Part shown: piece by piece, positions 48,619-54,306 of the stretch
Layout: each line of letters opens with the position of its first letter
Numbering within the stretch: the stretch's first letter is position 1
DNA from: Thiotrichaceae bacterium
GTDB lineage: Bacteria; Pseudomonadota; Gammaproteobacteria; Beggiatoales; Beggiatoaceae
NCBI GenBank assembly: GCA_016745055.1
Contig: JADGDF010000006.1
Span: 1-60,976 of the forward strand
DNA length: 60,976 nucleotides
Direction of reading: 5' to 3'
Position numbers and translations under genes: made by a program
The notes under the pieces: generated by a model
Told to the model about the DNA's origin: nothing
Seen by the model: the letters and a program-made list of their open reading frames with translations, nothing else
Database searches by the model: none

Positions 48619-48909
48619 TATCTCAGAAGCAGCTTGGTAAATAGTCATAGAAGTTTCGCGAGCGTAATTTTAAGCACCGCAATACATATCATATTTTTAG
48701 TAAGTAGTAGGCAATATTTCAAAGTTTTTAGTCAATCGTCAAAAACTATTAATCCAAGTAAAATGAGTTCTACAATCCAATGTTTTGGGAAAATAAGCCC
48801 AGTTTTAGAAATAGAAAGTAAATGAAGTTTTTTAACTTATTTGTTATAGGTTTTTATATAAGCTTGAGTTAAAATAACTGCTGATTAGCTTATTCCGACT
48901 AAAGTGACC

Positions 48910-50052
48910 ATGAAATATAAAAACTACTTGCATTATTTTGTTGCCAAAGCTTACAAAACTTATGTGCGTTCGCGTATTGCCCGCCTTATTCATTGGGAAA
49001 CTTTACCTCCTCTTGAACAAGGATGCACAGCAATTATTGGCATGTGTTCTAAATTGCCCTACGTATTGGCCGCTAACTTACAATGTTTAGCCGATTTAGA
49101 TTGGGAAGATTTAAAAGCAGTCATTGTTGCTGTCGATACTCAAAAAAAAGCATTACCCGATGGTTTTGAAACAGAAATATTGGCTCAATTTCCACAACTT
49201 AATCTTGCTTTTATCTACTACACTGAAAAACAAGTTAAAACCGCTAATAAAATCAAAGACCCTTATGTTTTTTCATGGTTGTCTTGGAGCCTTTGTTTGA
49301 ATCATATACGTACGCAAACTGCCCTCATTCAAGATTATGATGCATTAGTCTTAGACAAAAACATTTTAGCCCAACGTTATCAAACTTTTTTAGTATCTAA
49401 GGCAAAAATACAAGGCATTATGTGGTATAAATCTGAAGGATTTGTGGAGGAAGATCAATTAGCGACAACCTTTGAAGCTTTTATTGACGTTAATTGGTTG
49501 CGTTCATTTCCACCTGTCATGGGGTATAACCGAGTTGCGACAACTTCAGATGGTCGTCAAGTTAATTATGATACCTTTTTGGATATTCAACATAATCATA
49601 CGCCAACATCTGAACGTACCATTATGGCCATGCCAAAGGAAACCCTCGCCCATCCTTCGCAAATGATTACTCAATACATGCGTTTTCTTTATTCTCCGGG
49701 TAAACCATTGTATTCTTCCGCTGTGATCATGATCCCTGTTTTTCACTATCTTTCTGGAAGAAAATATGCATTTACCCAAGCGGTTGCGGCGTTAGAACAA
49801 GGCGATTTTGGACAAGTTGATTTCTTAGGTGACGGGTGTTTAATTAACTTTTCTTTGTTAAAAACTTATTCTGTAGATTTTGTTCTCAAACTGAGTGTGC
49901 ATGTCTTTATCAGCAAAAAAATTGCACCCTTTAGGGAATTTTTTGAGTATGGCACTTTGCTTTATCATATTTCCAATACACCTGCTGAAGAAGTATGGTG
50001 TAATCACTATACACCAGAACAACTTGCTTGGGTTAAAGAGGCTAAAGCGTAG
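48910..50052 (+). CDS. Putative GT-A glycosyltransferase-like protein
   Basis: This 380-aa protein was not recognised with certainty. It opens with a basic/aromatic segment, then a fold-like series TAIIGMCSKLPYVLAANLQCLADLDWEDLKAVIVAVDT typical of GT-A-type nucleotide-sugar enzymes (short motif: AVIVAVDT), and YDALVLDKNILAQRY where a DxD-like metal site might be. No membrane helix or signal is evident. The C-terminal half has no clear family. The start could also be the GTG at 48904. It may decorate a polysaccharide, but this is inference; the sequence is of unknown function. Confidence 0.55.
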   Translation: MKYKNYLHYFVAKAYKTYVRSRIARLIHWETLPPLEQGCTAIIGMCSKLPYVLAANLQCLADLDWEDLKAVIVAVDTQKKALPDGFETEILAQFPQLNLAFIYYTEKQVKTANKIKDPYVFSWLSWSLCLNHIRTQTALIQDYDALVLDKNILAQRYQTFLVSKAKIQGIMWYKSEGFVEEDQLATTFEAFIDVNWLRSFPPVMGYNRVATTSDGRQVNYDTFLDIQHNHTPTSERTIMAMPKETLAHPSQMITQYMRFLYSPGKPLYSSAVIMIPVFHYLSGRKYAFTQAVAALEQGDFGQVDFLGDGCLINFSLLKTYSVDFVLKLSVHVFISKKIAPFREFFEYGTLLYHISNTPAEEVWCNHYTPEQLAWVKEAKA

Positions 50053-50349: not shown

Positions 50350-50751
50350 ATGAAATACATTCTGAATATCCCTTCTCTACTTTATATCTTAATATTTTAT
50401 AATATTTTAGCCTTTTCAGGTGTAGATTTTACAACCGTCTTGTTTTCTACATCGCTTATTTCAGAAGCTGTATTAACGGTCACATGGGAAGAATTATTCA
50501 TTCTACTTGGCGTGGTAGCGTTATATATTGAAACAATAAAATCAACAAGAACGTCTAGTTCTGCTATTTTTGAACATACGTTATCTATGGTTGTATTTGT
50601 TGTTTATTTGGTAGAATTTTTGATGGTAGCTCAAGTCGGTACAACGTCTTTCTTAATTCTAGGTATGATGCAATTACTTGATGTGATAGGTGGATTTACC
50701 ATTACAATATCAGCAGCACGACGTGATTTTGGTGGTGGGCTTCACCACTAG
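50350..50751 (+). CDS. Small polytopic membrane protein of unknown function
   Basis: The 133-aa product has four hydrophobic stretches, a Thr/Ser-rich loop (IKSTRTSSSAIFEHT) and a terminal ISAARRDFG-type segment. Its regular, conserved-looking pattern and AGG before the ATG argue for a real gene. No family was recognised. It lies between a glycosyltransferase-like gene and the convergent CARF nuclease gene, without an obvious link to either. AT-rich leader contains no clear promoter. Confidence 0.65.
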   Translation: MKYILNIPSLLYILIFYNILAFSGVDFTTVLFSTSLISEAVLTVTWEELFILLGVVALYIETIKSTRTSSSAIFEHTLSMVVFVVYLVEFLMVAQVGTTSFLILGMMQLLDVIGGFTITISAARRDFGGGLHH

Positions 50752-50794: not shown

Positions 50795-51955
50795 TTAATT
50801 TTCCACCCATATTTTCAAAATTTCTTCGAGCCGTCCAAGTTGTTGTCCTGCACAAATTGAAATACCTAGGTCGTGGGCACGTTGTTTATCCCAGTCAGAT
50901 AAAGAGTGGTAACTCACTAGCATGACTTTGGTATGAACATCTCCCAAAATACTTTTAAGCGTATCCAGTTTATATAAAACATCAGCGGCATGAGAATTAA
51001 TAGATTGATTTTCTCTTGGCATTTCATTAAAACGTCTCGTCTTACATTCGATAATATGCAGATGGTTATTATGCAAAAAGGCAACATCTAACTCATTTTT
51101 AACCGCTTTACCTGTACTATCTCGACTAATTTCAACACTGTAACCAACGTCCTGAATTTTAGGTATTTCTTTGCGTAAACCAAATAATACGCCATAGGTA
51201 TGTTGCTCTAACCAACCACCATTAACGAAAAAACGGGCAGCTTCACTGGCAAATTCGATACGACCACGTTGATATTTCAACAAGTTTTCAGCTGCAAAGC
51301 GTTCAATTAATTGTTCCAAAGCTTGCCATTGTCGTTGTTCTGCTTTCAGGGAAACAGATAAACCTTGTTGCGCCTGTTGTGCTAACCAATTAAGTGCGGC
51401 TAAAGGTGTGGCCAAATTTTTAATATGTTTAATAACATCTTGGGCCAGTTCACGCAAATTTTGAGAGACACCACTTCTATCTCCCATACTGCCAACACCC
51501 GCGCCATGTGCTTGGAGAAAAGCACGTAATTTTATATGATCTGCGACATTAAAAGACGGTAGGTTGCGTTGATGAATCCAAGTAACATAGTCTGTTTCAG
51601 GATGTACGTAAAAAATAGGTTTATTGAATTCACGAAAAATTTCATAGGCAGCCATACTCATAGGGCGTGTTCCCCCACTGGCATTGAGTGCAATATCATC
51701 TTGCTCTCTTTCAACCAGTAATTCAAGCACCCGTTCTCGAATATGTTCAACATCTCGATTATCGTTAATAGACCAACGTGATACTTTAATACCTGTAGGT
51801 TTTAATACGTTTTCTAAACTGGTTGCACGATAGCCTTTATCTGGACTATGCAACAAAATAACTTCTTCTGGTTGAAAAGCTGGATCAAGGGCAGGTGTCA
51901 CATTAGCAGTGGCCGTATTATAAACTAAACACAGATGGATTTTAGGTTTAAGCAT
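50795..51955 (-). CDS. Orphan CARF-domain nuclease (Card1/Can2-like, DUF1887)
   Basis: The 386-aa protein has an N-terminal CARF domain with the ligand-binding motif NASGGTRPM at residues 91-99, a winged-helix middle (about 170-250) and a PD-(D/E)xK nuclease domain: ELD at 288-290 and ECK at 303-305. Card1/Can2 enzymes are activated by cyclic tetra-adenylate made by type III CRISPR Cas10 and then cut DNA and/or RNA. No Cas10, Csm/Cmr or CRISPR array lies in this window, so it acts either with a distant locus or with another oligonucleotide signal. The gene stands alone and is convergent with the small membrane-protein gene. Motifs look intact, so it should be functional. Confidence 0.87.
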   Translation of the reverse strand: MLKPKIHLCLVYNTATANVTPALDPAFQPEEVILLHSPDKGYRATSLENVLKPTGIKVSRWSINDNRDVEHIRERVLELLVEREQDDIALNASGGTRPMSMAAYEIFREFNKPIFYVHPETDYVTWIHQRNLPSFNVADHIKLRAFLQAHGAGVGSMGDRSGVSQNLRELAQDVIKHIKNLATPLAALNWLAQQAQQGLSVSLKAEQRQWQALEQLIERFAAENLLKYQRGRIEFASEAARFFVNGGWLEQHTYGVLFGLRKEIPKIQDVGYSVEISRDSTGKAVKNELDVAFLHNNHLHIIECKTRRFNEMPRENQSINSHAADVLYKLDTLKSILGDVHTKVMLVSYHSLSDWDKQRAHDLGISICAGQQLGRLEEILKIWVEN

Positions 51956-52257: not shown

Positions 52258-54306
52258 TTAATCATCCCCTTCTGAGGGTTTATAGGCTGCAACTAACTGT
52301 TGTTGTACCGCTGGAGCAACTGCTTCATAGTGGCTATATTCCATTGAATAAAAACCGTGACCACCTGTGATTGATTTTAATTCAGTAGGATAATTTGCCA
52401 ACTCACTCAAGGGGACTTCTGCTTTGACCGTGACCATATGACCTGCCGCCACGTCATTTCCCTGAATACGACCGTGTTTACCCGCTAAATCTCCTGTAAT
52501 TGTTCCAACATCAGATTCAGGAACTGTCACTTCTGCGTTAACAACGGGTTCAAGAATAGTTGGCTTAGCTTTGCTAATAGCATCTAAAAAGGCTTTTTTA
52601 CCTGCTGTCACAAAGGCAATTTCTTTTGAATCAACAGGATGATGTTTTCCATCATGCACGGTTACTTTCACATCTTGCATTGGATAACCGGCAATAGCCC
52701 CTGTTTCTAAAACCTGTCGAACACCCTTTTCCACTGCAGGAATAAACCCAGATGGAATCACGCCTCCAACAATGGCATTCACAAACTCAAAGCCTACACC
52801 TCTTTCCAAAGGTTCCACTTTTAAAAATACTTCACCAAATTGCCCAGCACCACCCGATTGCTTTTTATGACGATAATGGCCTTCCGACGCTTTATTAATG
52901 GTTTCTCGATAAGCAATTTTAGGCAGTTTGGTTTCTACTTCAACGTTATACTGGCGATTCATGCGTTCAAGTACCACCCGCAAATGAAATTCCCCCAAAC
53001 CTTTTAATACCGTTTGATTAAGTACTGCTTGATGCTCAACAATTAAGCAAGGGTCCTCCTCTTCCAACTTTTGCAAAGTACCACTGACTTTTTGTTCATC
53101 TCCCTGACGTTTAGGTTCAATAGCTAAACCATACATGGGTACAGGAAAATCTAGCGGTTTGAGATGGATAAAATCTTCGTCATGAGAATCGTGCAGTACA
53201 CTGTCAAAATGAATAGATTCCACTTTTGCAACCGCACAAATATCACCAGGTATCCCATAATCAATTTCAACCTGTTGTTTACCTTGTAGTTTGAACAAAT
53301 GACCGACTCGGAAGGGTTTGCGTCCATCACCGACATATAGTTGGCTGTCTTTAGTGATAGTACCTTGATGGATACGAAATACGCTCAATTTACCCATAAA
53401 AGGGTCAGCCGTGACTTTGAACACATGAGCCAAAACATGCTCATCTGGTTTTTCAGTCGTTAAATAGGGTTTAACGGCTTCGCCCTCACCCCGTAAGAAA
53501 GGTCTTGGATTTCCTTCTAACGGATTGGGCATTAATGTTGTCAGTACCTTGAGTAATTCAGGGATACCCGCCCCAGTACGAGAGGAAACAAAGCAAATAG
53601 GGACTAGATGTCCTTCTCGCAAAGCAATTTCAAAAGCATCATGAAGTTGTGCTGGTTCTAATGCTTCTCCCTGTTCCAGGTAAACTTCCATTAATTTTTC
53701 GTCGACTTCAACGACTTGGTCAATAATCTGAGTATGAGCCTCTTCAACAGAACCAAAATCAGAATTTCCACAGGGATTGAAAAAACAATCAACGACTGAC
53801 TCACCGTTATTGGCAGGTAAATTTAAAGGTAAACATTCATTACCAAAGGTTTCTTTAATTTCTTCCACCAAGTTGGGTAAATTAAGTTCACCTGCATCAA
53901 TTTTATTAATGACAATAAATCGACATAGTTTTCGGCCTGCTGCCCATTCCAACATGCGGCGGGTAATCATTTCAATACCCGTTTGGGCATTAATAACAAC
54001 ACCAATAGTCTCAACAGCAGGAAACACACTTAAAGTGTGGCCCATCAAATCCGGATAACCTGGTGTGTCAATCAAATTAACATGTCTGCCTTCTTTGTCA
54101 AAACTTGCAATTGCAGCATTGAGTGAATGTTGGTATTCCTTTTCCAACGCATCATGATCACAGATTGTATTTCCGTTCTCCACCTTTCCTTGGGTATTTA
54201 TCGCACCTGCATTATAAAGCAGGGCTTCGGTAAGTGTTGTCTTACCTGAGCCAGTTTGGCCCACTAAGGCAACATTACAAATATCTTCTGTTTTATAGTG
54301 TGGCAT
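52258..54306 (-). CDS. Elongation factor G-like GTPase (EF-G paralogue)
   Basis: This 682-aa five-domain protein resembles EF-G. The G1 loop is GQTGSGKTTL, not GHxDHGKTT; the G3 motif is DTPGYPDL with Tyr where canonical EF-G has the catalytic His (DTPGH); NKID (G4) is normal. Later domains show KLEEEDPCL, GLGEFHL, KQSGGAGQFGEV, IPSGFIPAVEKG and VPESDVGTITGDL as in the EF-G-like/EF-G2 subfamily. The missing His predicts slow GTP hydrolysis; such paralogues may act in ribosome recycling or under stress rather than in elongation. The true fusA normally lies in the str operon. Confidence 0.9.
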   Translation of the reverse strand: MPHYKTEDICNVALVGQTGSGKTTLTEALLYNAGAINTQGKVENGNTICDHDALEKEYQHSLNAAIASFDKEGRHVNLIDTPGYPDLMGHTLSVFPAVETIGVVINAQTGIEMITRRMLEWAAGRKLCRFIVINKIDAGELNLPNLVEEIKETFGNECLPLNLPANNGESVVDCFFNPCGNSDFGSVEEAHTQIIDQVVEVDEKLMEVYLEQGEALEPAQLHDAFEIALREGHLVPICFVSSRTGAGIPELLKVLTTLMPNPLEGNPRPFLRGEGEAVKPYLTTEKPDEHVLAHVFKVTADPFMGKLSVFRIHQGTITKDSQLYVGDGRKPFRVGHLFKLQGKQQVEIDYGIPGDICAVAKVESIHFDSVLHDSHDEDFIHLKPLDFPVPMYGLAIEPKRQGDEQKVSGTLQKLEEEDPCLIVEHQAVLNQTVLKGLGEFHLRVVLERMNRQYNVEVETKLPKIAYRETINKASEGHYRHKKQSGGAGQFGEVFLKVEPLERGVGFEFVNAIVGGVIPSGFIPAVEKGVRQVLETGAIAGYPMQDVKVTVHDGKHHPVDSKEIAFVTAGKKAFLDAISKAKPTILEPVVNAEVTVPESDVGTITGDLAGKHGRIQGNDVAAGHMVTVKAEVPLSELANYPTELKSITGGHGFYSMEYSHYEAVAPAVQQQLVAAYKPSEGDD

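Follow-up and report, generated by a model that had tools for sequence, protein, structure and literature searches.

Gene product and catalytic site

The window analysed here is a stretch of 60,976 nucleotides of contig JADGDF010000006.1 (positions 1 to 60,976) from a Thiotrichaceae bacterium of the family Beggiatoaceae (GCA_016745055.1). At positions 50795-51955 its minus strand carries a gene that an initial annotation, made from the sequence alone, had described as a Card1/Can2-type CARF nuclease standing apart from any CRISPR-Cas genes. The gene and its main features are as follows.

50795..51955, minus strand: orphan Can2/Card1-type gene (386 amino acids, ATG start, monocistronic)
51506..51955, minus strand: CARF sensor domain, residues ~1-150 (PF23400 match and alignment to SthCan2 and VC1899)
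51914..51922, minus strand: strand-1 pocket motif Tyr12-Asn13-Thr14, remodelled (aligned to SthCan2 Ser19-Asp20-His21; Ser-x-Gln in type III-linked relatives)
51659..51679, minus strand: second pocket motif Ser93-Gly-Gly-Thr-Arg97-Pro-Met99 (SthCan2 equivalent Thr95...Lys99)
51608..51610, minus strand: Tyr116, retained (equivalent to SthCan2 Tyr118, which binds phosphate of cyclic tetra-adenylate, cA4; Val115 in VC1899)
50804..51244, minus strand: PD-(D/E)xK nuclease domain, residues 238-384 (PF09002, 102 bits)
51086..51094, minus strand: catalytic Glu288-Leu-Asp290 (E276/D278 of SthCan2; aligned, invariant in 11/11 orthologues)
51041..51049, minus strand: catalytic Glu303-Cys-Lys305 (aligned, invariant in 11/11 orthologues)

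The predicted product is an intact CARF and PD-(D/E)xK protein of the Can2/Card1/VC1899 family. Pfam placed both domains above the cut-off (Card1_endonuc PF09002, residues 238-384; CARF_Card1 PF23400, 36.6 bits, residues 44-129), PADLOC matched the protein to CARF4 CARF_PDDEXK (395 bits, E 6e-119), and the nearest solved chains by sequence were VC1899 of Vibrio cholerae (1xmx, DUF1887, E 2e-46) and then SthCan2 (7bdv, E 4e-38). The sequence match to the Can2/Card1 family is well past chance. An AlphaFold model of low confidence (pLDDT, the predicted local distance difference test, 63.6; pocket loops below 50), unfit for docking, gave the same two chains as top structure matches (1xmx Z 20, 7bdv Z 18). 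With VC1899 the protein shares domain order and catalytic residues, and with the Can2/Card1 proteins (SthCan2 7BDV, TsuCan2 and Treponema Card1) it shares the CARF and PD-(D/E)xK order, the catalytic E-D-E-K set, the equivalent of Tyr118 and the GGT loop. The motifs NELD (E288, D290) and IECK (E303, K305) hold the four catalytic residues, none of which was lost on alignment. Both the nuclease identity and the intact PD-(D/E)xK site put forward in the initial annotation were thus borne out.

Type III genes in the genome

The genome (G000, in which the window is contig C231) is a 4.65-Mb assembly of 356 contigs with an estimated completeness of 100%. Here and in the other genomes the presence of type III systems was judged by Cas genes, and repeat arrays were searched for in the window. 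Neither Cas10 or RAMP similarity nor a CRISPR-like array was found in the window, as had been annotated, and Cas10 palm, RAMP and Cas1 were all without a match in the whole genome. The gene is an orphan in its own genome, with no type III genes detected. The suggestion that it serves a distant type III locus therefore finds no support in this genome, although a gap in the assembly is possible.

The other suggestion of the initial annotation, an unrelated nucleotide-signal defence, may apply. Two other candidates were set aside. The SMODS (PF18144) or mCpol (PF18182) cyclase that would accompany a CBASS or Panoptes effector had no match in the genome, where other CD-NTase families were not searched. 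A second Card1-like match (C264, L002:1303-1851) was a 182-amino-acid coiled-coil PD-(D/E)xK protein with a weak Card1_endonuc match, unrelated to CARF signalling.

Orthologues and selection

Full-length orthologues, 51-70% identical, were found in 11 of the 43 family genomes, the window's included, and are spread over eight genera. The nearest named carriers are Ca. Parabeggiatoa sp. 2 and 3, Ca. Halobeggiatoa HSG11, Thiomargarita and a Thiotrichales bacterium. No Cas10 or RAMP was found in the fetched flanks of any of the 11, and where a carrier has Cas10, it always lies on a different contig from the orthologue. Four of the carriers (G000, G001, G003 and G013; completeness 92-100%) have neither Cas10 nor RAMP. 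RAMPs were present in 7/11 carriers versus 23/32 non-carriers (Fisher p 0.71), and carriage of the orthologue is unrelated to possession of type III. A further match in G004 (29% identity) is a separate copy linked to type III, with Cas10 and RAMP genes next to it; this divergent Can2 (L061:16068-17394) is split into two overlapping open reading frames (ORFs) of 174 and 317 amino acids, suggesting a frameshift.

The gene is under purifying selection with its nuclease site intact. Pairwise ratios of nonsynonymous to synonymous substitution rates (dN/dS) among the orthologues were 0.065-0.125, the CARF half was no more relaxed than the nuclease half, and the copy in G013, which lacks type III, was about as constrained as those of G010 and G012, its sisters with type III.

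Remodelling of the CARF pocket

The cA4 contacts of SthCan2 that are common to Can1 are Ser19, Thr42, Lys99 and Tyr118 (PMC7969007). Alignment to SthCan2 showed that two of these were replaced in all 11 orthologues, Ser19 by Tyr or His and Lys99 by Arg, and that Tyr118 was retained in 10 of them; the Thr42 position holds Ser in six and Gly, Asn or Ala in five. In the numbering of the window's protein, the changes common to all 11 are Ser12 to Tyr/His, Gln14 to Thr, Thr93 to Ser and Lys97 to Arg. The strand-1 motif is thereby [YH]-N-T in place of S-x-Q, and NxTGG-K has turned into NxSGGTR. The NASGGTRPM stretch annotated as a CARF ligand motif is indeed present at residues 91-99, but it is not the ordinary motif (NxT..xK), since Ser and Arg replace Thr and Lys.

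All type III-linked rows in the alignment retain Ser19 and Lys99. Only 11 columns fully separate the 11 orthologues from 11 sister Can2 proteins, with no residue shared, and five of them (12, 14, 36, 93 and 97) belong to the pocket set. Conservation among the orthologues was 0.87 at pocket positions versus 0.76 for the rest of the CARF domain. As judged from the alignment and tree, the pocket changes arose on the stem of the family and have stayed fixed since. The strand-1 motif of Sso2081, which includes Ser11, belongs to the cA4 cleavage site (PMC10018336), so the strand-1 change could also alter ligand turnover.

Relationship to type III-linked Can2 proteins and to VC1899

The orthologues form one clade (support 100/99), sister to the Can2 proteins of G043 and G310 from another family and nested among Cas10-linked Can2s. 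Outside the family, Can2 lies within ~10 kb of Cas10 in G289, G164, G163, G335, G313, G277, G166, G223, G177 and G361, and the Can2s of G448 and G408 are also Cas10-linked. The first six of these genomes (Gammaproteobacteria) hold some of the closest relatives from outside the family, ~40-43% identical. Unlike the family gene, the type III-linked gammaproteobacterial Can2s retain Ser-x-Gln and Thr-Gly-Gly-x-Lys. The sister proteins of G043 and G310 likewise have Ser and Lys, and no Cas10 above the cut-off was found in either genome. The deeper branch order of the Can2 tree had weak support. The simplest reading of this pattern would be that the gene left its Cas10 locus once, in the ancestor of the family or earlier.

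Some relatives, such as that of G659, have an ordinary pocket although no Cas10 is close by in the examined flank, which indicates that loss of linkage is not enough to change the pocket. Among the rows aligned from the sparse samples of the class (369 genomes) and the phylum (398 genomes), no other copy of the family's pocket was found. Directly before Can2 in G164 (L103:8386-9021) and G405 (L106:2626-3264) there is a small CARF-like ORF of 211-212 amino acids, which may encode a ring nuclease or a further CARF effector.

VC1899, the best match among solved structures, likewise has no type III linkage, and it has been reported to show a weak RNase activity that does not depend on cA4 (PMC7969007). 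Both orphan lineages carry the Thr to Ser and Lys to Arg changes and have Ser and Arg in the second pocket motif. The rest of the pocket differs. At the four contact positions VC1899 has Asp9, Asp34, Arg96 and Val115 (PMC7969007), and its strand-1 and Tyr-position residues are Asp9, Gln10, Asp11 and Val115 versus Tyr/His12, Asn13, Thr14 and Tyr116 in the family. The VC1899 pocket is thus acidic and hydrophobic (Asp9, Asp34, Val115), while that of the family is polar and basic (Tyr/His, Asn, Thr and Arg, with Tyr116 kept). The free tree separates the two lineages, but a common origin to the exclusion of the linked Can2s was not rejected (approximately unbiased test, p 0.109 and 0.135), and the shared changes may be convergent or inherited from one ancestor.

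VC1899 orthologues were found in nine genomes (loci L155-L163; G632, G714, G572, G617, G740, G641, G462, G720 and G491), which we call Vibrio-like from their match to VC1899. They lie at ~9.1-10.8 kb of each locus with neighbours conserved on one side, no Cas10 or RAMP occurs within 10 kb, and their pocket is invariant (D-Q-D / NASCGLRHR). VC1899 therefore appears to be a conserved orphan too and no one-off relic.

Interpretation

We lean towards the view that the gene encodes a ligand-gated Can2-type nuclease that became detached from a CRISPR locus and whose sensor now answers an altered or different nucleotide signal. Its ancestor would have been an ancillary effector of type III CRISPR, which was unlinked from the Cas10 locus and then kept as a standalone gene. 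With the pocket at the presumed CARF dimer rewritten, the ligand would be a changed or different phosphate-rich nucleotide; candidates are a cyclic oligonucleotide of another kind, an RNA-end ligand and a cyclic oligoadenylate bound with altered affinity or turnover. By homology with Can2 (PMC7969007), a ligand lying across the CARF dimer would close the dimer and switch on the nuclease, and the activated PD-(D/E)xK sites may then nick or degrade nucleic acid, as a defence against phage or a stop induced by stress. A changed or different ligand is probable because the pocket appears to have been rewritten and then held fixed while the cutting site stayed intact. Somewhat doubtful, and offered tentatively, is the proposal that this is a family-wide CRISPR-independent signalling nuclease of large sulfur bacteria, with a CARF domain adapted to some messenger other than the cyclic oligoadenylate of Cas10, made by another enzyme.

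Several points weigh against a retuned nuclease. No maker of another signal was found in the searches for SMODS and mCpol in the window's genome, and draft assemblies can miss CRISPR loci. The enrichment of separating columns in the pocket (hypergeometric p ~0.001, within the CARF domain) is only indicative, because the pocket positions were picked by hand with the residues already known, and column 36 (His/Tyr) is Tyr in SthCan2 too and so is not novel to the family. Ordinary cA4 may still be a ligand, since some capacity for hydrogen bonds survives in every replacement (Lys to Arg, Ser to Tyr/His). Moreover, seven of the 11 carriers own type III loci that could signal in trans, and the cyclase GGDD motif was intact in all five Cas10s read from carriers.

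The last points suit a rather unlikely alternative, in which the protein is a trans-acting type III effector that sits away from cas loci and answers the cA4 of any resident type III system, its own genome having lost type III or the assembly missing one. The carriers' RAMPs mostly occur with Cas10, and Arg, Tyr/His and Tyr116 are all still capable of phosphate contact. However, such an effector would not be expected from carriage that does not track type III, from four nearly complete carriers with neither Cas10 nor RAMP, from the unrelaxed constraint in G013, or from a pocket unlike any in the type III-linked relatives examined.

It is less probable still that the gene is a degenerate leftover, "cast adrift" as put forward for VC1899, which has lost ligand binding and has a weak or constitutive nuclease, left with a small part in housekeeping. 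The weak, cA4-independent activity of the nearest solved relative and the Ser and Arg replacements shared with it are consistent with such decay, while strong purifying selection, invariant catalytic residues, the higher conservation of the pocket than of the remaining CARF domain, and the absence from the family of the acidic and hydrophobic residues of VC1899 argue against it. The gene is conserved in eight genera and under purifying selection, its nuclease is intact, and its pocket changed a single time and has stayed constant, a pattern that looks more like reuse than decay. A sensor of stress or RNA damage, with the CARF domain binding RNA fragments or 2',3'-cyclic phosphate ends like that of RtcR and the nuclease acting in RNA or DNA turnover, would accord with the housekeeping neighbours in the genomes examined and the lack of phage or viral-contig copies, but is very improbable given a fold and pocket nearest to those of cA4-type CARFs. 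We therefore prefer, in descending order, a changed or different ligand, a response to cA4 in trans, decay, and RNA-damage sensing.

VC1899 has so far been taken for a degenerate CARF nuclease severed from CRISPR, and the lineage described here offers a contrast. It makes CARF ligands in cells without Cas10 accessible to testing, with positions 12, 14, 93 and 97 as residues that could be swapped for ligand choice.

Surroundings of the gene

The gene is convergent with a plus-strand ORF at 50350-50751 and lies 302 bp from an EF-G-like gene (52258-54306). Its neighbours in the window are uvrA, two unknown ORFs, the EF-G-like gene, a pilin gene, queH and gspD. As the initial annotation had it, the neighbours are not defence genes: a scan of the window's genes that included PADLOC revealed no defence system, the mad3 and mad8 matches being due to shared ATPase/GTPase domains. 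Recent foreign origin was rejected, as GC content overall and at third codon positions agrees with the flanks, and so was phage, plasmid or viral carriage, with no phage or viral-contig relative and one weak plasmid match. The two ORFs adjoining the gene (48904-50052, plus strand, 382 amino acids; 50350-50751, plus strand, 133 amino acids) have no Pfam match at E 1e-5, and the shorter appears to be membrane-bound.

The genes scanned near the orthologues are housekeeping ones, such as lptF/G, folE2, an ABC transporter, gltX and a sulfate permease. A conserved partner gene was rejected, the only case being a kinase and M23 peptidase pair that occurs in four genomes and not beside the window's copy. 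These Ser/Thr kinase and M23 peptidase genes lie directly upstream of the orphan Can2 at L056:1660-4087, L053:8630-11049, L051:8346-10785 and L052:5956-8324 (G013, G012, G029 and G028, respectively). In three of the four genomes the kinase, M23 and Can2 genes overlap or almost touch, and may form an operon.
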